55,298 nt of DNA from Phycicoccus flavus (GTDB lineage Bacteria > Actinomycetota > Actinomycetes > Actinomycetales > Dermatophilaceae): positions 1 through 55,298 of the forward strand of contig NZ_SAYU02000023.1 of the NCBI RefSeq assembly GCF_004025965.2. Direction: 5' to 3'. This document shows, in pieces, positions 42,200 through 51,460 of this stretch; positions within the stretch are counted from its first letter, which is position 1, and each line of letters starts with the position of its first letter. A program made the position numbers and the translations under genes. Below the pieces are notes generated by a model. The model worked only from the letters and a program-made list of their open reading frames with translations, did not search any database and was not told the origin of the DNA.

Positions 42200-42311
42200 G
42201 GCTCCAGCCTCGCACCCGCACCTGTGCGACGGACGGCCGGTGACCAGGACATCCGTCACGACGTCTCGACTCCCGCCGCCACCGGAGGGGCGCCGGGACG
42301 GAGCCCCGGCG

Positions 42312-42992
42312 TCAGGAGCGCCAGGTGTAGGTGACCTCGGGACGACCGGTGCCGGCGTAGCGGTTGCCGCGGGCGGCCCGGCCGGAGTCGACGAGGTGCT
42401 CGGCGTAGCGCCGGGCCGTCACCCGGCTCACCCCGAGGGCCTCGCCCAGCTCGGCCGCCGACCGTCCGGTGCCCGCCTCGCGCAGCACGACGACGACCCG
42501 GCCCAGCAGGTCCTCGGTCATCCCCTTCGGCACGCTCACCGGGGCCGCCGGCCGCAGCCGGGTGAGCAGGCTGTCGACCTGCGCCTGGGTGTCGGCCTCG
42601 CCGGCGTCGTGGCGGTAGTCGCGGTAGGCCAGGAGGCGCTCGCGCAGCGTCGCGAAGACGAACGGCTTGAGGACGTACTGGACGACCCCGAGCGAGACCG
42701 CCGACCGCACGGTCTCGAGGTCGCGCGCCGAGGTGACGGCGACGACGTCGGCCCGGTGGCCGTGCGCGCGCATCGCCCGGACGACGTCGAGCCCGCGCAG
42801 GTCCGGCAGCCCCATGTCCAGGAGCACGAGGTCGACCCGGTGCTCCCCGAGGTGGCGCAGCGCCTCCCGCGCGGTGTGCACCCGACCCGACACGACGAAG
42901 CCCTCGACCCGGCCGACGTACGTCGCGTGCGCCTCCGCGGCGACGGGCTCGTCCTCGACGACGAGGACGGCGATGGGCTCGTCGGGGCTCAC
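42312..42992 (-). CDS. response regulator, CitB/DcuR-like
   Basis: A 226-residue regulator. The receiver domain (about 6-125) has the acidic pair in VVEDEP, the phospho-acceptor D59 in LVLLDMGLPD and K109 in VLKPF. The C-terminal region includes RSAAELGEALGVSRVTARRY, the HTH of the CitB/DcuR type. GTG 42992 overlaps the stop of the sensor kinase gene (GTGA), so both are co-translated. It probably activates the divergent dicarboxylate symporter gene. Confidence 0.9.
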   Translation of the reverse strand: MSPDEPIAVLVVEDEPVAAEAHATYVGRVEGFVVSGRVHTAREALRHLGEHRVDLVLLDMGLPDLRGLDVVRAMRAHGHRADVVAVTSARDLETVRSAVSLGVVQYVLKPFVFATLRERLLAYRDYRHDAGEADTQAQVDSLLTRLRPAAPVSVPKGMTEDLLGRVVVVLREAGTGRSAAELGEALGVSRVTARRYAEHLVDSGRAARGNRYAGTGRPEVTYTWRS

Positions 42993-44644
42993 CGGCCGAG
43001 GCCGACCCGGTCGGCGGTGTCCACCGGTGCGCCGGCGCCGCCGCGCAGGACCGGCAGCGTCACCGTGACGACGGCGCCGGGTGGGCCGGCGAAGCCCAGC
43101 GTCCCGCCGAGCCGCCCCACCGTGCCGTGCACGAGCGCCAGCCCGACCCCGCGCCCGGCGTCCCCGGAGGCCGGCTTGGTCGAGAACCCGCGCTCGAGGA
43201 CCCGCTCGCGCAGCGCCGGCGGGATGCCGGGGCCGGTGTCGGCGACGACGAGCTCGACCCGGTCGCCGCGGTCGTGGGCGGTGAGCTCGACCCGGCGCTC
43301 GCCGGGCTGCCCGGTGACGGCGTCGAAGGCGTTGTCGACGAGGTTGCCGACGACCGTCACGAGGTCGCGCGGTGAGGCCACCCCGGCCGGCCACCGCAGC
43401 CCGGCGTCGAGGACGAGGTCGATGCCGCGCTCGTGGGCCTCGGCGGCCTTGCCGAGCAGCAGTGCCGACACGACCGGGTCCTCGACGCCGGCGACGACGC
43501 GGTCGGTGAGGTGCTGGGCCCGGCTCAGCTCGTCGGTGGCGAAGGACAGGGCCCGCGAGGTGTCGCCGAGCTCGATGAGCGAGACGATCGTGTGCAGCCG
43601 GTTGCCCGCCTCGTGCGCCTGCGAGCGGAGCGCGTCGGCCAGGCTGCGGGCGGCCCCGAGCTCGCCGGTCAGCTCCTCGAGGTCGGTGCGGTCGCGGATC
43701 GTCACCACCGCCCCGAGGTCCTCGCCGTCGCGCCGGGCCCGGGCCTTGTTGAGGACGAGCACCCGCGACCCGGTGACGTGGAGGTCGTCCTCGCGGACGT
43801 CGGGGTCGCTCATCGCGCGCACCAGCGCCGGCCCCAGCCCGAGGTCCGCCACCGGGCGTCCGGCGGGGTCGTCGGCGAGCCCGAGCAGCCGCCGCGCCTC
43901 GTCGTTGGCCAGCCGCACCCGGCCCTCGGGGTCGAGCAGGACCAGGCCCTCGGTGACCGAGTGCAGCACGGCGTCGTGGTGGTCGTGCATGGCCTGGAGC
44001 TCGGCGGCGCGCAGCCCGCGGGTCTGGCGCCGGACCCGCCGGGCGATGAGGGTCGCCCCGATCCCGGCGAGGACGCCGGCCACGCCCCCGGCGACGAGCA
44101 GGGGCGGCAGCTCGCCCGCCATCCGGGCGTCGACGGCGGGCTCCCCGATCCCGACGGCCACCAGCCCGACGACGGACCCGCCGGCGCCGGTGACCGGGAC
44201 GACCGCCCGCCGGCTCGGCCCGAGCGTGCCGGTGTAGTCCTCGACGACGGTGCCGCCGGCCCGCGCGGCGTCGATGTGGCCGACGAACCGGCGGCCGACC
44301 TGCGCCGGGTTGGGGTGGCTGTAGCGGATGCCGTCCGGGCTCATGACGACGACGAAGTCGGTGCCCGTGCTCGCGCGGACCCCTTCGGCCAGGGGCTGCA
44401 GCACCCCGCCGGGGTCGCCGTCGGTCACCGCCGTGACGACGTCGGGCTCGGCCGCGACCGCCCGCGCGACGGCGAGCACCTGGGCCGTCGACTCGTCGGT
44501 CACCGCCCGCTCGGCCTGCACGTACGCGGCCGCCAGCCCCGCGGCGATGACCCCGAACACGAGCGCGACGACGAGCACGGCGGTCTGCCCCGCGACGCTG
44601 AACCCGCGGCGCTGCTCCTCGGGGGTCGGGGTCACGCCGCTCAC
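42989..44644 (-). CDS. sensor histidine kinase, CitA/DcuS-like
   Basis: A 551-residue membrane kinase. One N-terminal helix (AGQTAVLVVALVFGVIAAGL) is followed by an extracellular PAS-type sensor with IRYSHPNPAQVGRRF, close to the ligand pocket of DcuS/CitA. A second helix lies near PPLLVAGGVAGVLAG; a cytoplasmic PAS follows, then the phosphoacceptor segment SQAHEAGNRLHTI, and ATPase boxes NLVDNAFDAV and DTGPGIPP. It likely senses C4-dicarboxylates or citrate. GTG 44644 or 44635 may be the start. It is divergent from the DctA-type gene. Confidence 0.9.
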   Translation of the reverse strand: MSGVTPTPEEQRRGFSVAGQTAVLVVALVFGVIAAGLAAAYVQAERAVTDESTAQVLAVARAVAAEPDVVTAVTDGDPGGVLQPLAEGVRASTGTDFVVVMSPDGIRYSHPNPAQVGRRFVGHIDAARAGGTVVEDYTGTLGPSRRAVVPVTGAGGSVVGLVAVGIGEPAVDARMAGELPPLLVAGGVAGVLAGIGATLIARRVRRQTRGLRAAELQAMHDHHDAVLHSVTEGLVLLDPEGRVRLANDEARRLLGLADDPAGRPVADLGLGPALVRAMSDPDVREDDLHVTGSRVLVLNKARARRDGEDLGAVVTIRDRTDLEELTGELGAARSLADALRSQAHEAGNRLHTIVSLIELGDTSRALSFATDELSRAQHLTDRVVAGVEDPVVSALLLGKAAEAHERGIDLVLDAGLRWPAGVASPRDLVTVVGNLVDNAFDAVTGQPGERRVELTAHDRGDRVELVVADTGPGIPPALRERVLERGFSTKPASGDAGRGVGLALVHGTVGRLGGTLGFAGPPGAVVTVTLPVLRGGAGAPVDTADRVGLGR

Positions 44645-44758
44645 CGGCCGACGCCGGCGTCGCGCGTGAACACTGCGTACACAAGCGTGACGATAGCCGC
44701 GGGCGGCACCACCCTGTCTGGCAGCGCACCCCCGCGTCGGACGAAGGAGTTCACGCCC

Positions 44759-46192
44759 ATGACCGCATCCACGACGACCACGCCCGAGCGGCCCGAGACC
44801 GGGGGACGTCGCGACCGCACGCACTTCCTCTACATCGCCGTCATCGCGGCGATGGTGCTCGGCATCCTCGTCGGCTTCCTGTTCCCCGAGTTCGGGGTGC
44901 AGCTGAAGCCGCTCGGCACCTTCTTCGTCAACCTCATCAAGATGATGATCAGCCCGATCATCTTCGCGACCATCGTCCTCGGCATCGGCTCGGTCCGCCG
45001 CGCCGCCCAGGTCGGCAAGGTCGGCGGGCTGGCCCTCGGCTACTTCCTCGCCATGTCCACGGTGGCCCTGGCCATCGGCCTCGTCGTCGGCAACATCGTC
45101 AAGCCCGGCGCCGGCCTCAACCTCACCGACGAGCTCGCGAAGAGCGGCCAGTCGCAGGCCGCCACCGGCGGCGCCGAGTCGACGACCGACTTCCTCCTCG
45201 GCCTCGTGCCCGACACGCTCGTGTCGTCGCTCACCTCCGGCTCGGTCCTGCAGACCCTGCTCGTCGCGCTGCTCGTCGGGTTCGCGCTGCAGAAGATGGG
45301 GACGGCGGGCGAGCCGATCCTGCGCGGCATCACCCACTTCCAGCGCCTCGTCTTCCGCCTCATGGCGATGATCATGTGGGTCGCCCCGGTCGGCGCCTTC
45401 GGGGCGATGGCCGCGGTCGTCGGCGCCACCGGCCTGGACGCGCTGAAGAGCCTCGGCCTCATCATGGTCGCCTTCTACGCCACCTGCCTGATCTTCGTCT
45501 TCGGCATCCTCGGGACGATCCTGCGCCTCGTCGCCGGGGTCAGCGTCTTCGCCCTCTTCCGCTACCTGGCCCGCGAGTTCCTCCTCATCCTCTCGACGTC
45601 GAGCTCGGAGTCGGCCCTGCCGCGGCTCATCGCGAAGATGGAGCACGCCGGCGTCTCGCGCCCGGTCGTCGGCATCACCGTCCCCACCGGGTACTCGTTC
45701 AACCTCGACGGCACCGCGATCTACCTGACGATGGCCTCCCTGTTCATCGCCGAGGCCATGGACAAGCCGTTCAGCATCGGCCAGCAGATCGGCCTGCTCG
45801 TCTTCATGATCATCGCGTCCAAGGGCGCGGCCGGCGTCACCGGCGCCGGGCTCGCCACGCTGGCCGGCGGCCTGCAGAGCCACCGCCCGGACCTCGTCGA
45901 CGGCGTCGGCTTCATCGTCGGCATCGACCGGATGATGAGCGAGGCGCGCGCCCTGACCAACTTCGCGGGCAACTCGATCGCGACGGTGCTCATCGGCACC
46001 TGGGTCGGGGCGATCGACCGCGAGCAGCTGGACGAGGTCCTCGCCGGACGCCGCCCGTTCGACGAGTCGACGATGGTCGACGAGCGCGAGCAGGGCAGCG
46101 TCCTGGAGTCCGGGCCCGACCTGGACCGGGCCCCGGCCGCCCCCGCCGTGGCGTCGGCCTCGTCCGGCGGCGCGACGTCCGGCACCCGCTGA
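44759..46192 (+). CDS. dicarboxylate/amino acid:cation symporter, DctA-like
   Basis: A 477-residue DAACS-family symporter. FFVNLIKMMISPIIFATIVLG is an early helix; the serine-rich re-entrant loop STSSSESALPRLI and PTGYSFNLDGTAIYLTMASLF, then AGVTGAG, are the hallmark transport-core motifs. It should import C4-dicarboxylates such as succinate, fumarate or malate with H+ or Na+. ATG 44759 follows GAAGGAG. It is divergent from a CitA/DcuS-type kinase and response regulator and is the obvious target of that pair. A long polar tail is probably cytoplasmic. Confidence 0.92.
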   Translation: MTASTTTTPERPETGGRRDRTHFLYIAVIAAMVLGILVGFLFPEFGVQLKPLGTFFVNLIKMMISPIIFATIVLGIGSVRRAAQVGKVGGLALGYFLAMSTVALAIGLVVGNIVKPGAGLNLTDELAKSGQSQAATGGAESTTDFLLGLVPDTLVSSLTSGSVLQTLLVALLVGFALQKMGTAGEPILRGITHFQRLVFRLMAMIMWVAPVGAFGAMAAVVGATGLDALKSLGLIMVAFYATCLIFVFGILGTILRLVAGVSVFALFRYLAREFLLILSTSSSESALPRLIAKMEHAGVSRPVVGITVPTGYSFNLDGTAIYLTMASLFIAEAMDKPFSIGQQIGLLVFMIIASKGAAGVTGAGLATLAGGLQSHRPDLVDGVGFIVGIDRMMSEARALTNFAGNSIATVLIGTWVGAIDREQLDEVLAGRRPFDESTMVDEREQGSVLESGPDLDRAPAAPAVASASSGGATSGTR

Positions 46193-46197
46193 AGACC

Positions 46198-46239
46198 CCG
46201 GCGCGACCCCGGACGGCTGCAGCCCCGGGGTCGCGCCGG
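46198..46239 (+). terminator. hairpin terminator after the DctA-like gene
   Basis: Perfect 15-bp arms, 46198-46212 (CCGGCGCGACCCCGG) and 46225-46239, with a 12-nt loop, begin 6 bp after the stop codon. There is no T-tract. Confidence 0.7.
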
Positions 46240-47594: not shown

Positions 47595-48005
47595 TCACGA
47601 GCGCCGGCGCACCATCGTCCACACGTTGACGCCGTCGGCGCGGCCGTAGGTCAGCTCGTCCAGCACCGCCGTGGCGAGCGGCAGGCCGCGCCCGCTCTCG
47701 TCCTCGACCCCCGGCATCACCGCGGATCCGACGTCCACGGTCGCCGGCAGCGCCTCCCCGTCGTCTGTGAGCACCCCGACGACCCGGTCCGGGTGGACGT
47801 CCACCCCGAAGGTCCAGCGCACCGCGCCGGGCGGGCGGCCGTGCTCGACGACGTTGTTCGCGATCTCGATGACGGCCGTCTCGAACAGGCCGAGGTCGAG
47901 CGAGGCGAGGTCCGGGTGGTCGCGACCGACCCGCTCCAGCAGGTCGTGCAGCGCCTCGATCTCCTCGGGGACGGCGAACCCGGTCAGCCGGTGGTCACCA
48001 GCCAC
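47595..48005 (-). CDS. anti-sigma factor-type ATP-binding protein (RsbW/SpoIIAB-like)
   Basis: A 136-residue GHKL ATPase of the serine-kinase type. The N-box region is VIEIANNVVEHG; the G-box regions are VGVLTDDGEALP and DESGRGLPLATAVLDEL. Such proteins bind a partner (often a sigma factor) and phosphorylate the STAS antagonist. GTG 48005 lies inside the STAS gene (11-bp overlap), so the two are co-translated, last in the four-gene operon. No sigma factor gene is adjacent, so its target is either encoded elsewhere or is not a sigma factor. Confidence 0.88.
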   Translation of the reverse strand: MAGDHRLTGFAVPEEIEALHDLLERVGRDHPDLASLDLGLFETAVIEIANNVVEHGRPPGAVRWTFGVDVHPDRVVGVLTDDGEALPATVDVGSAVMPGVEDESGRGLPLATAVLDELTYGRADGVNVWTMVRRRS

Positions 48006-48327
48006 GGGCCGCGGCCTCGACGTCCGGGTGCGGCGTGAGGACGCGGTCGAGGTTGGTGAGCGCGAGCACGCTGCCCACCTGGTCGTTCGGTGCGGCGATG
48101 CGCAGGTCGCCGCCGGCGGTCCGGGCCGCGCGCAGGCCGCCGACGAGCGCGCCGAGGCCCGAGGAGTCGACGAAGGTCGTCGCCCCGAGGTCGACGACCA
48201 CGCGGGGGTCGCCGTCGCGCACGGCGGTGTCGACCGCCTCGCGCAGCCGACCGGCGGTCGTCATCGTCAACCGGCCCTCGCAGGCCAGGACGGTGTAGCC
48301 GGAGCCGGCGCGGGTGTGGATCTCCAT
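47995..48327 (-). CDS. STAS-domain anti-sigma factor antagonist (RsbV/SpoIIAA-like)
   Basis: A 110-residue STAS protein. RVVVDLGATTFVDSSGLGAL contains the D-S-S-G phosphorylation site (serine about 55) of SpoIIAA/RsbV. Its dephosphorylated form would sequester the RsbW-like kinase. ATG 48327 overlaps the GT2 stop (ATGA), and its own end overlaps the kinase gene. The cognate PP2C phosphatase is the first gene of the operon, so the module is complete. Confidence 0.92.
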   Translation of the reverse strand: MEIHTRAGSGYTVLACEGRLTMTTAGRLREAVDTAVRDGDPRVVVDLGATTFVDSSGLGALVGGLRAARTAGGDLRIAAPNDQVGSVLALTNLDRVLTPHPDVEAAARGW

Positions 48328-50306
48328 CAGGGGGTGTGCTCCTTCTCGGGCAGCGGGGCGAGGACGGGGGCGGGCTCGGGCTCCGGGGCCCGGTAGAGGG
48401 CGGCCTGGAAGATGACGCTCATGACGACGAGGTCGTAGACGACCCAGGCCAGGTTGACGCCGGTGCCGATGACGCTGTCCGCGGCGCCGGTCCACAGCCG
48501 GACGACGCCGGCGATGGCGGCCAGGACGAGGACGACGGTGGCGAGCAGCTGCGGCCAGACGAGCCGCACCGGGAAGCCGCCGCCCGCGGTGCGGGTCTTC
48601 GGGGTGACGACGAAGCCCAGTGGCCGCTTGAGGAACACGTTGGCCGCCGCCGTCGTGCAGGCGCGGATCCACAACGGGAACAGCGCGAGGCTGTACTGGT
48701 GGCCGCGCCAGGTGCGCACGCCGTACCCGACGACGACGAACATCAGCTGGTTCATCACGACGTACGGCGCGAAGAGCATGAGGAAGGTGAGCCCGTAGGC
48801 GTGCACCGGCAGGACGCCGTAGGTGAGGTAGGCCACCGGCGCGGCGAGGAAGGCCAGCGCCGCGAAGCCGGACAGGTAGCTCCACATCGTCGCGAAGTAC
48901 ATGAGCCGCTGCCCCGGCGCCAGACCGCGCTTGGTCAGCGGGTTCTCGCGCAGCAGGACCTGGAGGGTGCCCTGGGCCCAGCGCAACCGCTGGCCGAGCA
49001 TGGTCCCGAGGTCCTCGGGCGCCAGGCCGTGGGCGAGCACCTCGTGGTGGTAGACCGAGCGCCAGCCCTGGGCGTGCAGCCGCATGCAGGTGGCCATGTC
49101 CTCGGTCACCGAGATCGTCGCCATCGGCATCACCGGCTGGGCCTCGTCCGGCCGGTCGACGTCGACCGCGCGGAGGATGTCGCGCACCGAGGCGACGGCC
49201 CCGAGCGGCGACCACTCGCGGTCGGCGAGCGCGTCGACCGCGACGTCGTCGAGGACGAGCTGCCCGCCCTCGCCGTCGACCCGCACCGGCAGCGCGGCGA
49301 CGGCGGCGAGGTCGGCGCGCATCGTCGCGACGTCGTCCTCGACGACCTCGCGGCTCGCCGTCGCGACGGCCTCGCGGAAGCGGTAGGTGACGTCGGCGAC
49401 CGGCGTGCCCGCCGCCAGCAGCGCCCGGGCCTCCTTGGCCTCGCGGCGCAGGGTGCGCATCGCCTCGGCGGCGCGGGGGGTGGCCCCGCCCAGGTCCTTC
49501 GCGGCCCGCGAGAGGATCCGGTCGGCCGCCCGCAGCGCGTCGGCGACGGCCACCTCGACCTCGCGGACGTACCCGACGATGCCGAGCTGCATGAGCGCCT
49601 CGCGCCGCAGCAGGGCGTTCGAGCCGCAGAAGAAGGCCGCGTTCCAGCCGTCCTTGCCCTGCTGGATGGGGCCGTAGAACAGCGGCGCCTGGCTGCCGAG
49701 CGGGTCGGAGTCGGTGACGTTGGTGAACCACTGCGGCGTCTGGACCAGCGCGACCTCGGGGTCGCGGAACCAGCCGACGGTGCGCGTGAGGATCGCCGGG
49801 TCGGGGATCTGGTCGGCGTCGAGGATGAGCAGCAGCTCCCCCTCCGTGGCGAAGAGCGCGTTGTTGAGGTTGCCGGCCTTGGCGTGGCGCGGCTTGTCGG
49901 CCCAGTCCGGGCTGCGGGTGAGGTAGCCGACCCCGAGCTCGGCGGCCGCGGCGGCCATCTCGGGCCGGGCGCCGTCGTCGAGCACCCACGTCGTGTGCGG
50001 GTAGGTGATGTCGCGGGCGGCGCGGGCGGTCTCGACCACCATCTCGACCGGCTCGTTGTACGTCGTGATGAGGACGTCGACCGTCGTGCCGGGCTCCGGC
50101 TCGGGGGCCGGTCCGCGCTCGCGGGAGCGCCAGACGGTGACGGTGAAGAGGAAGGCGTCGACGAGCGCGTAGGTCTCGGCCAGCGCCAGCGGGACGGCGA
50201 TCCACCAGTGCTCCCAGTAGACCGACATGCTCCAGCGCCAGCCGACGTAGACGACCCCGAAGAGGACGGTCAGCGTGCCGAGCACGCGCACGAGGGCGCG
50301 CTTCAC
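48327..50306 (-). CDS. family 2 glycosyltransferase, cellulose synthase (BcsA/CesA)-like, with large insertion
   Basis: A 659-residue membrane processive glycosyltransferase. Two N-terminal helices precede the catalytic domain: ITTYNEPVEM (about 80-89), WVLDDGARPEM, the D-x-D of ILDADQIPDP (about 161-170), AFFCGSNALLRREAL (about 224-238), SVTEDMAT (about 399-406) and QRLRWAQG (about 439-446), followed by about five helices. Between GSNALLRR and the TED motif are about 150 extra residues, partly helical and charged (AAEAMRTLRREAKEARALL), where bacterial BcsA has about 15. Product: a beta-glucan or other exopolysaccharide. No PilZ domain is evident. GTG 50306 overlaps the phosphatase stop; its own stop overlaps the STAS start. 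Confidence 0.9.
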   Translation of the reverse strand: MKRALVRVLGTLTVLFGVVYVGWRWSMSVYWEHWWIAVPLALAETYALVDAFLFTVTVWRSRERGPAPEPEPGTTVDVLITTYNEPVEMVVETARAARDITYPHTTWVLDDGARPEMAAAAAELGVGYLTRSPDWADKPRHAKAGNLNNALFATEGELLLILDADQIPDPAILTRTVGWFRDPEVALVQTPQWFTNVTDSDPLGSQAPLFYGPIQQGKDGWNAAFFCGSNALLRREALMQLGIVGYVREVEVAVADALRAADRILSRAAKDLGGATPRAAEAMRTLRREAKEARALLAAGTPVADVTYRFREAVATASREVVEDDVATMRADLAAVAALPVRVDGEGGQLVLDDVAVDALADREWSPLGAVASVRDILRAVDVDRPDEAQPVMPMATISVTEDMATCMRLHAQGWRSVYHHEVLAHGLAPEDLGTMLGQRLRWAQGTLQVLLRENPLTKRGLAPGQRLMYFATMWSYLSGFAALAFLAAPVAYLTYGVLPVHAYGLTFLMLFAPYVVMNQLMFVVVGYGVRTWRGHQYSLALFPLWIRACTTAAANVFLKRPLGFVVTPKTRTAGGGFPVRLVWPQLLATVVLVLAAIAGVVRLWTGAADSVIGTGVNLAWVVYDLVVMSVIFQAALYRAPEPEPAPVLAPLPEKEHTP

Positions 50307-51460
50307 GACGCCCTCCGCAGGGCCAGGGCCGTGACGTCGTCGAGGGGGTGCTCGCCCCCCGACGCGGTGACGGCGTCGACGACGTCCTGCACCCGGCGGG
50401 CCCCGGCGACGAGCTCGACGCCGGCCCTGAAGGCGCTCGGGGTGTCGGGGAAGACGTCGAGCACGCCGTCGCTGACGACGAGCAGCGTCTCGCCGGGCGC
50501 GAGCCGGTCGTGGGCGACCCGCCACTCGGTGCCGGGGACGACGCCGACCGGCGGGTGGACCGCCGCGAGGCGGCGGGAGGAGCCGTCGGGGGCGACGACC
50601 AGCGCCAGGCCGTGGCCGGCGTCGATGTACTCGATCTCTCCGGTGGCGGGGGTCAGGCGGGCGCCGAACATCGTGACGAAGGTGACCGCGCCGGTGTCGT
50701 CGTCGGCGAGGAAGCTCTCGATCCGGCCGAGGATGCGCTCCAGCGGGATGAACCGCGAGGCGCCGCGCAGGATGGCCCGCACGCCGGAGGCGACGACCGC
50801 GCCCTCGACGCCCTTGCCCATGACGTCGGCCAGGCAGACCTGCACCGTGCCGTCGGGCAGCGCGAGCCAGTCGAAGTAGTCGCCGCCGACCTCACGGGCC
50901 GGGCGGCAGCCGCCGGCCAGGTCGTAGCCGTCGACGAGGAGCGGACGGGCGGGCAGCAGCCGGGCCTGGATGCGGCGGGCCTGCTCGGCCTCCGCGTCGT
51001 GGACGAGCTCGCGCTCGACCCAGTTCGCGAGGTCGCGCAGCATCCGGGCCTGCTGCGGGTCCAGGTCGCGCGGGCGCGAGTCCAGGAGGCACAGCGTCCC
51101 GACGGCGCTGCCGTCCTGGGCGTGCAGCGGCTCCCCGGCGTAGAACCGGATGCCGGGGTCGGCGCCGACGAAGGGGTTGGCGGCGAACCGGCGGTCGGCG
51201 GCGAGGTCGGGGACGACCAGGGCGGCGTCGGTGTCGACGGCGTGGGCGCAGAAGCTGTCCCGGCGGGGCACGTCGTCCCCGGGGAAGCCGGAGCAGGCCA
51301 GGCTCGACTGGACCTCGGCGTCGACGAGGTTGACGGCCACCATGGGCACGTCGAAGAGGTGCCGGGCGAGCCGGACGACGTGGGCGAACCGCTCCGCACC
51401 CGGGACGGCCTCGGCCGGGGTGTCGATCGTGCGGTCCAGGACGGGAGGCAGGGGGTTCAT
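50303..51460 (-). CDS. GAF-domain PP2C (SpoIIE/RsbU-type) serine phosphatase
   Basis: A 385-residue protein. Residues about 20-165 form a GAF sensor domain (FDVPMVAVNLVDAEVQ, then RRDSFCAHAVD and VGTLCLLDSRPRDLD, the pattern of GAF domains fused to signalling outputs). Residues about 175-385 are a SpoIIE-type PP2C with REVGGDYFDW, the metal-binding LADVMGKGVEGA, a TMFGARL segment, YIDAGHGLALVV and LLVVSDGVLDVF. It should dephosphorylate the STAS protein of the same operon in response to a small molecule or redox/light cue. ATG 51460 is preceded by GAGGA; TACGCT (51496-51501, minus strand) is a likely -10 box. It heads the operon. Confidence 0.92.
   Translation of the reverse strand: MNPLPPVLDRTIDTPAEAVPGAERFAHVVRLARHLFDVPMVAVNLVDAEVQSSLACSGFPGDDVPRRDSFCAHAVDTDAALVVPDLAADRRFAANPFVGADPGIRFYAGEPLHAQDGSAVGTLCLLDSRPRDLDPQQARMLRDLANWVERELVHDAEAEQARRIQARLLPARPLLVDGYDLAGGCRPAREVGGDYFDWLALPDGTVQVCLADVMGKGVEGAVVASGVRAILRGASRFIPLERILGRIESFLADDDTGAVTFVTMFGARLTPATGEIEYIDAGHGLALVVAPDGSSRRLAAVHPPVGVVPGTEWRVAHDRLAPGETLLVVSDGVLDVFPDTPSAFRAGVELVAGARRVQDVVDAVTASGGEHPLDDVTALALRRAS

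Follow-up and report, generated by a model that had tools for sequence, protein, structure and literature searches.

The window analysed here, the whole 55,298-nucleotide stretch of Phycicoccus flavus contig NZ_SAYU02000023.1 (positions 1 to 55,298), carries on its minus strand a cassette of four overlapping genes for a GAF-SpoIIE phosphatase of the PP2C type, a BcsA-like family 2 glycosyltransferase (GT2), a STAS protein, and an RsbW-type kinase. The contig belongs to a 4.26-Mb genome (guanine-plus-cytosine content, 71-79%). An earlier note, made from the letters of this stretch alone, had read the four genes as a partner-switching module enclosing a cellulose synthase-like enzyme, and its gene coordinates agree with the sequence. 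The features are as follows; counts out of 104 refer to the loci described below the list.

50303..51460, minus strand: GAF-SpoIIE (PP2C) phosphatase, putative input of the switch; 385 amino acids, ATG at 51460
about 51394-51005, minus strand: GAF domain (Pfam GAF, 56.7 bits, 4.8e-15)
about 50857-50312, minus strand: SpoIIE domain (Pfam SpoIIE, 111.5 bits, 6.3e-32)
50303..50306, minus strand: overlap of PP2C stop and GT2 start in the sequence GTGA, 4 bp
48327..50306, minus strand: BcsA-like processive GT2 without PilZ, 659 amino acids; its closest solved relatives are BcsA
49122..49580, minus strand: GT2 insert, residues 243-395, ahead of TED; predicted three-helix bundle and candidate docking site (alignment and AlphaFold2 models)
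49098..49106, minus strand: TED catalytic motif, GT2 residues 401-403, invariant in 104 of 104
48597..48614, minus strand: BcsA-type gating-loop motif FVVTPK, GT2 residues 565-570, aligned to BcsA; F, V, T, and K invariant in 104 of 104
48327..48327, minus strand: junction of GT2 stop and STAS start in the sequence TGATG, 1-bp overlap
47995..48327, minus strand: STAS protein, RsbV-like, 110 amino acids (PF01740, 59.1 bits, 4.2e-16)
48163..48165, minus strand: predicted phospho-acceptor Ser55 in the DSSG motif of STAS, the first serine being assigned by analogy
47995..48005, minus strand: overlap of STAS end and RsbW start in the sequence, 11 bp
47595..48005, minus strand: RsbW-type HATPase kinase, 136 amino acids (PF13581, HATPase_c_2, 39 bits, 9.5e-10)

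A scan of genomic contigs (genome_contigs) returned at least 551 stretches encoding a relative of the window GT2, not all of them necessarily cassette members, and the best 80 were taken as named loci. All 80 are actinomycetes by title, with Phycicoccus, Serinicoccus, Nocardioides, Microbacterium, Arthrobacter, Cellulomonas, Rhodococcus, Gordonia, Mycolicibacterium, and Pseudonocardia among their genera. STAS, RsbW, and PP2C lie together with GT2 within 4 kb in 77 of the 80, and the gene order and strand of the window are kept in 61 of these 77 complete loci. The three exceptions are a contig edge (L062) and two extra GT2 copies (L109 and L128), whose genomes hold GT2-STAS-RsbW at another place. 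PP2C is merely a fragment in L127 and its match is split in two pieces in L066 and L074, while the stop within the STAS match of L159, at residue 110, is the normal STAS end. In the sampled relatives of the window, GT2 orthologues were found in two of 57 genomes besides its own (L010, 83%; L011, 66%); counting the window's own genome, the class sample held 23 in 394 and the phylum sample two in 396. STAS and RsbW adjoin GT2 in 22 of the 24 loci from these samples (L010, L011, and L039-L060), the other two being a contig end (L039) and a GT2 fragment (L060) that is excluded from every cassette count; PP2C was not seen in the 1.5-kb flanks of L059. Over all 104 loci, some of which come from identical or nearly identical genomes sampled twice (L039 and L062, for instance), STAS is present in 100 and RsbW likewise in 100. 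The four-gene neighbourhood that the earlier note had proposed to trace across genomes is thus strongly conserved, and the lack of conservation that it had named as counter-evidence did not materialize. Clustering of neighbouring reading frames in 81 loci, a search of limited sensitivity, gave no further gene family in more than 13 loci; because the frame caller recovered RsbW in 72, PP2C in 50, and STAS in 31 of the 81, a fifth gene of small size may have escaped it.

The overlaps between the genes recur as well. With start codons picked by script, same-strand neighbours overlap in 74 of 88 PP2C-GT2, 86 of 99 GT2-STAS, and 85 of 97 STAS-RsbW pairs across the 104 loci. The shared stretch is exactly 4 bp long in 63 of the 88 PP2C-GT2 pairs, and 61 of the 97 STAS-RsbW pairs share exactly 11 bp. 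Recurrence on this scale means that gene overlap is not chance, and it suggests translational coupling. The overlap at every junction that had been described for the window is present, including GTGA and the 11 bp, but the second junction is TGATG and not ATGA, and production that is "stoichiometrically linked", as had been claimed, goes further than the sequence evidence, which suggests coupling rather than fixed stoichiometry. A natural STAS-RsbW fusion occurs in Microbacterium ureisolvens (L079:9935-10669).

Some loci show peculiarities of their own. Nocardioides sp. CFH 31398 has two cassette copies of identical layout on different contigs (L124 and L125). A contig titled Sphaerisporangium cinnabarinum (L090) gives the same match and the same STAS and RsbW positions as Cellulosimicrobium funkei (L088), and its assembly may be contaminated or misnamed. 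In Arthrobacter sp. ISL-30 (L160), PP2C and STAS flank a stretch at about 1857-1991 that resembles the GT2 C-terminus, and this may be a cassette that has lost its synthase; the genome has other copies.

The switch itself looks functional, judging by the motif residues kept in its three proteins. STAS has an invariant D54-S55-S56-G57, the DS[ST]G phospho-site pattern, in 100 of 100 sequences, and E47, N51, G105, R106, G107, and W129 of RsbW, with its N-box and GxG motifs, are equally invariant (100 of 100). A SpoIIE domain was found in all 77 PP2Cs scanned with Pfam, in which G193, D197, and G332 are invariant and D194, D212, D331, and D374 are kept in at least 90%, consistent with a PP2C/SpoIIE phosphatase that keeps its metal-binding residues. 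These structure and Pfam alignments cover 76 of 104 GT2s and 77 of 101 PP2Cs, most near-duplicates and some truncated sequences having been left out. We predict Ser55 as the STAS phospho-site by analogy with SypA Ser56 and BtrV Ser55, both phospho-sites according to PMC8256260. The input domains of the 77 PP2Cs are GAF in 70, a receiver domain in four, and MASE1 in two; across cassettes, the input varies and the output is constant. The proposal that GAF is the sensor accordingly suits most cassettes, though not all.

Opposite-strand PP2C genes were also seen about 2-4 kb upstream of GT2 in L108, L113, L120, L122, and others, and those scanned (L108, L120, and L122) have MASE1/PAS-like sensor domains, so a single switch may receive two or more inputs.

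In the class sample, STAS of the cassette type is restricted to this neighbourhood. Of the 394 genomes, 105 have a STAS match at E 1e-15, and the matches fall into two groups. Those with at least 50% identity (85-227 bits) occur in 21 of the 394 genomes, all of them GT2-positive, and each adjoins GT2 by coordinates; the next-best match has 43% identity and 72.7 bits, and we take this lower-scoring group as general anti-sigma antagonists. The GT2-positive genomes lacking a cassette-type STAS are those of L039 and L060. The exclusivity of this STAS to this GT2 within the sample is a result of computation, and this STAS does not have the look of a general regulator placed beside GT2 by chance.

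GT2 keeps the D, D, TED, and QxxRW catalytic motifs invariant or nearly so in the 104 loci and has a BcsA fold with the BcsA gating loop, yet the window enzyme scores 342.8 with the NCBIfam equivalog model TIGR03030, below its cut-off of 699.1. A Pfam scan found no PilZ domain in it, and the C-terminal tails, at most 48 residues past residue 640 in the 104 loci, are too short for one, which bears out the earlier remark that PilZ is not evident. What the enzyme has instead is an insert of 150-167 residues immediately ahead of TED, present by alignment in 104 of 104 cassette GT2s, which emerges from the GT-A domain between the RRxAL helix and TED and is predicted by structural models to form a three-helix bundle. 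A motif-distance script gave 166-183 residues in 101 of the 104, and its three outliers (89, 107, and none) were taken as script misses, given the alignment. The insert is absent (0-1 residue between the flanking motifs) from 14 non-cassette loci in which both GT2 halves were matched; these represent nine distinct genes, some loci overlapping, and the other 13 of the 27 loci matched one half or nothing. STAS, RsbW, and PP2C were not found in the available flanks of the 14, which downstream range from none to about 1.8 kb, and PilZ is present in one of seven non-cassette GT2s scanned with Pfam (L035). In these alignments the insert is a mark of the cassette, an apparent extra domain seen only where the switch is present.

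The association extends beyond actinomycetes. A plasmid search showed a BcsA-like GT2 with STAS, SpoIIE, and RsbW-type genes on a Nostoc plasmid, and this GT2 as query matched 26 plasmid records. GT2, SpoIIE, STAS, and ATPase genes occur together in nine of 12 records that were inspected, picked for diversity and annotation and not at random, from Alpha- and Gammaproteobacteria and Nostoc: Nostoc, Sphingobium, Pantoea stewartii, Pantoea agglomerans, Vibrio, Paracoccus seriniphilus, Pseudooceanicola, Chimaeribacter, and Rhodobacteraceae SC52. Genes were identified by record annotation, and in Nostoc and Vibrio by Pfam; cyanobacterial occurrence rests on the one Nostoc plasmid. Eight of the nine regions (not Sphingobium) also have DUF3131 genes, and six of these eight have OpgC or an acyltransferase. 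In Paracoccus liaowanqingii, SpoIIE and part of an ATPase gene are present and STAS was not seen. Pfam found no PilZ in the GT2s of these ten regions, and each of the nine switch-linked enzymes has an extension at the insert site that is shorter than the actinomycete insert. Between the CGxx motif and S/TED, the nine proteobacterial GT2s have 60-64 residues and the Nostoc enzyme has 40. The PilZ-type enzymes of Proteus and L035 have 18, a value resting on these two since the script gave no distance for seven of nine PilZ-type or ordinary GT2s. The remaining two of the 12 records hold a PilZ-bearing BcsA (Proteus and Rhizobium), and the Proteus plasmid resembles an ordinary bcs cluster in which no switch gene was recognised by eye. 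The GT2 of Nostoc sp. UHCC 0926 plasmid pn1 (L163:4801-12149) has a second insert of about 120 residues, helical-looking, between LDDG and HAKAGN, and in Sphingobium sp. RAC03 a stand-alone PilZ protein (L164:5945-6313) is encoded on the plasmid just before the PilZ-less switch-linked GT2, where cyclic di-GMP (c-di-GMP) might act in trans. A transposase-like open reading frame lies between the SpoIIE and ATPase genes of the Nostoc plasmid.

No Sigma70_r2 match was found on the window contig in a profile search of the contigs, in line with the earlier note, and 23 matches lie elsewhere in the genome; the window thus lacks the co-encoded cognate sigma factor of the sigmaB and sigmaF systems. In those systems, RsbU/V/W-sigmaB and SpoIIE/AA/AB-sigmaF, the switch consists of a PP2C, a STAS protein with DSSG, and a HATPase kinase with conserved motifs. 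The cassette has the same three components, and unlike in those systems the synthase gene occupies the output position.

Given the computational results on genes, motifs, conservation, insert, missing PilZ, and the contig without a sigma factor, we consider it rather probable that the cassette is a self-contained partner switch whose output is the co-encoded polysaccharide synthase and not a sigma factor, most likely through docking of STAS on the insert. In this model, the GAF-PP2C would sense a signal and remove the phosphate from STAS, which the RsbW kinase would phosphorylate at Ser55; unphosphorylated STAS would most likely dock on the helical insert and turn the synthase on or free its gating loop. 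Phosphorylation, STAS-GT2 binding, activation as the sign of regulation, and the polymer are what we infer. PilZ and c-di-GMP release the gating loop in BcsA, and STAS docking would take the place of this control. The earlier suggestion that phosphorylation replaces c-di-GMP control fits the missing PilZ, with the amendments that the phosphorylated protein would be STAS and that the genome has one GGDEF protein. Direct post-translational control is the simplest account because one non-regulatory gene is kept, an extra domain is specific to the switch-linked enzyme, and the contig has no sigma factor. STAS is the likelier partner of GT2 because it remains with GT2 in L093-L095, where RsbW and a PP2C are on the opposite strand (the layouts of L093 and L094 are identical and possibly one case), and because of a precedent in Pseudomonas aeruginosa.

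That precedent is SiaABCD, in which SiaA is a PP2C. According to PMC8457831, SiaC binds the stalks of SiaD and thereby activates it, phosphorylation by SiaB prevents this binding, and SiaC, HsbA, and BgrV are partner-switch proteins that control diguanylate cyclases. SiaABCD is a partner-switching cluster with an enzyme as its direct output, as the cassette would be, and docking in the cassette is a prediction. The components differ: SiaC is a DUF1987 protein and SiaD a GGDEF enzyme, whereas the cassette has a PF01740 STAS, a HATPase_c_2 kinase, and a membrane polysaccharide synthase. From BcsA, the cassette GT2 differs in lacking PilZ, in the helical insert before TED, in falling below the TIGR03030 cut-off, and in having no further gene seen to be co-conserved. 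SypA/SypE of Vibrio fischeri likewise ties a STAS switch to a polysaccharide locus; according to PMC8256260, unphosphorylated SypA promotes biofilm from that locus, with Ser56 as the site, but SypE alone is both serine kinase and phosphatase and the SypA target is given as not known. An Anabaena protein that combines STAS and glycosyltransferase parts is also mentioned there, and a Klebsiella pneumoniae gene set, listed without mechanism in a passage of PMC12974863, resembles the Pantoea-type plasmid cluster by gene list only.

Several observations weigh against direct control of the synthase through its insert. Confidence of the AlphaFold2 models is low in the TED-proximal part of the insert (predicted local distance difference test scores below 50 at 339-352 and 356-364). 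The two orphan GT2 copies of L109 and L128 persist without adjacent regulators, and in L099 the regulators are divergent from GT2. In a mirror-tree comparison, for which a 93% identity filter retained 79 of 99 loci, the correlation of STAS distances is 0.66 with the insert and 0.68 with the gating loop and C-terminus, and RsbW behaves like STAS, so the insert is not singled out. On the Rhizobium sp. CC-CFT758 plasmid (L171:2273-9671), SpoIIE with weak DUF6272 and weak STAS matches lies upstream of the PilZ-bearing BcsA, perhaps a further switch next to a canonical cellulose synthase gene; a switch can thus also lie near a PilZ enzyme. The non-random choice of plasmid records belongs here as well. 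Finally, sigma-like frames lie within 8 kb of the cassette in 10 of the 80 named loci, and five of the ten (in L067, L068, L073, L084, and L089, roughly 2-7 kb downstream of GT2) are about 90% identical to the best-scoring sigma factor of the window genome; this check drew on 12 of the 23 sigma loci, taking for each the longest frame across its centre, which in some may be the wrong one. In L011, an ECF-like (extracytoplasmic function) frame was seen by eye a few hundred bases after RsbW.

Because the distances of STAS, of RsbW, and of PP2C each correlate with every GT2 region, the mirror-tree comparison cannot name the binding partner and was set aside for that purpose.

A different contact is conceivable, if unlikely: RsbW, not STAS, would bind GT2, the kinase sequestering or inhibiting the synthase as with sigma-B until unphosphorylated STAS draws it away. 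Partner switches canonically have this topology, RsbW occurs in 100 of 104 loci exactly as STAS does, and its distances correlate with those of the insert nearly as well (partial r 0.372 vs 0.382), but RsbW is off the GT2-STAS strand in L093-L095, where STAS stays, and the STAS-like partner is the one used in the SiaC-SiaD precedent.

We regard it as quite improbable that the target of the switch is a sigma factor from another part of the genome, with GT2 merely co-transcribed. The genome gives scope for it: besides the 23 Sigma70_r2 matches, the RsbW-type ATPase family has 21 matches there, 10 of which exceed the cut-off, and on contig C146 a strong ATPase match lies 1.2 kb from a sigma match, so that cross-talk is possible. 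The window RsbW also resembles anti-sigma factors through a weak match to NCBIfam RsbA (29.6 bits; cut-off, 210), and the sigma-like frames in 10 of 80 loci could be counted in its favour. These frames, however, have no constant place and are of differing kinds, the window contig has no sigma factor, and none is named in the annotation of nine plasmid regions with GT2, whose gene tables are incomplete. GT2 is, moreover, the one non-regulatory gene retained throughout, no cassette-type STAS without GT2 was found in the 394 genomes, and a remote target would leave the GT2-specific insert unexplained. The earlier note had offered direct control and a remote sigma factor side by side; conservation, the phylogenetic profile, the GT2-specific insert, and the occurrence in other phyla favour the former, and the latter stays a rival.

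Least credible is action through c-di-GMP, for example by way of a diguanylate cyclase with GT2 reading c-di-GMP through a separate PilZ protein, for which one could cite the control of diguanylate cyclases by partner switches (documented in PMC8457831), the one GGDEF protein of the genome, and the stand-alone PilZ protein of the Sphingobium cluster, but against which stand the short GT2 C-tails (no more than 48 residues past residue 640 across the 104 loci) and a neighbourhood search, of limited sensitivity, that saw no fifth conserved gene with the actinomycete cassette. In view of the same GGDEF and PilZ proteins, c-di-GMP is nevertheless conceivable as a second input.

Returning to direct control through STAS, we see about even chances for a broader proposal, namely that there is a class of processive polysaccharide synthases that work independently of c-di-GMP and are gated when unphosphorylated STAS binds a helical stalk beside TED. 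Its members would occur in many actinomycetes and also, carrying a shorter stalk, in Proteobacteria and in at least one cyanobacterium, and partner switching would control their polymer synthesis directly, with neither transcription nor a second messenger in between. Partner switches have been known chiefly for sigma factors and more recently for diguanylate cyclases, and a switch wired to a synthase would be a new output; in the available parts of the open-licence literature, where outputs are sigma factors, diguanylate cyclases, or unknown targets, no polysaccharide synthase was found as a direct one. If correct, the model would provide a second control route for cellulose-synthase-like enzymes beside PilZ and c-di-GMP and a function for an uncharacterised cassette widespread in actinomycetes. 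Since it specifies the enzyme, the switch, and the candidate docking site, its prediction can easily be tested.

Elsewhere in the window, at 42300-46200, we noted by eye genes for a CitA/DcuS-like sensor kinase and a response regulator, divergent from that of a dicarboxylate-type symporter.

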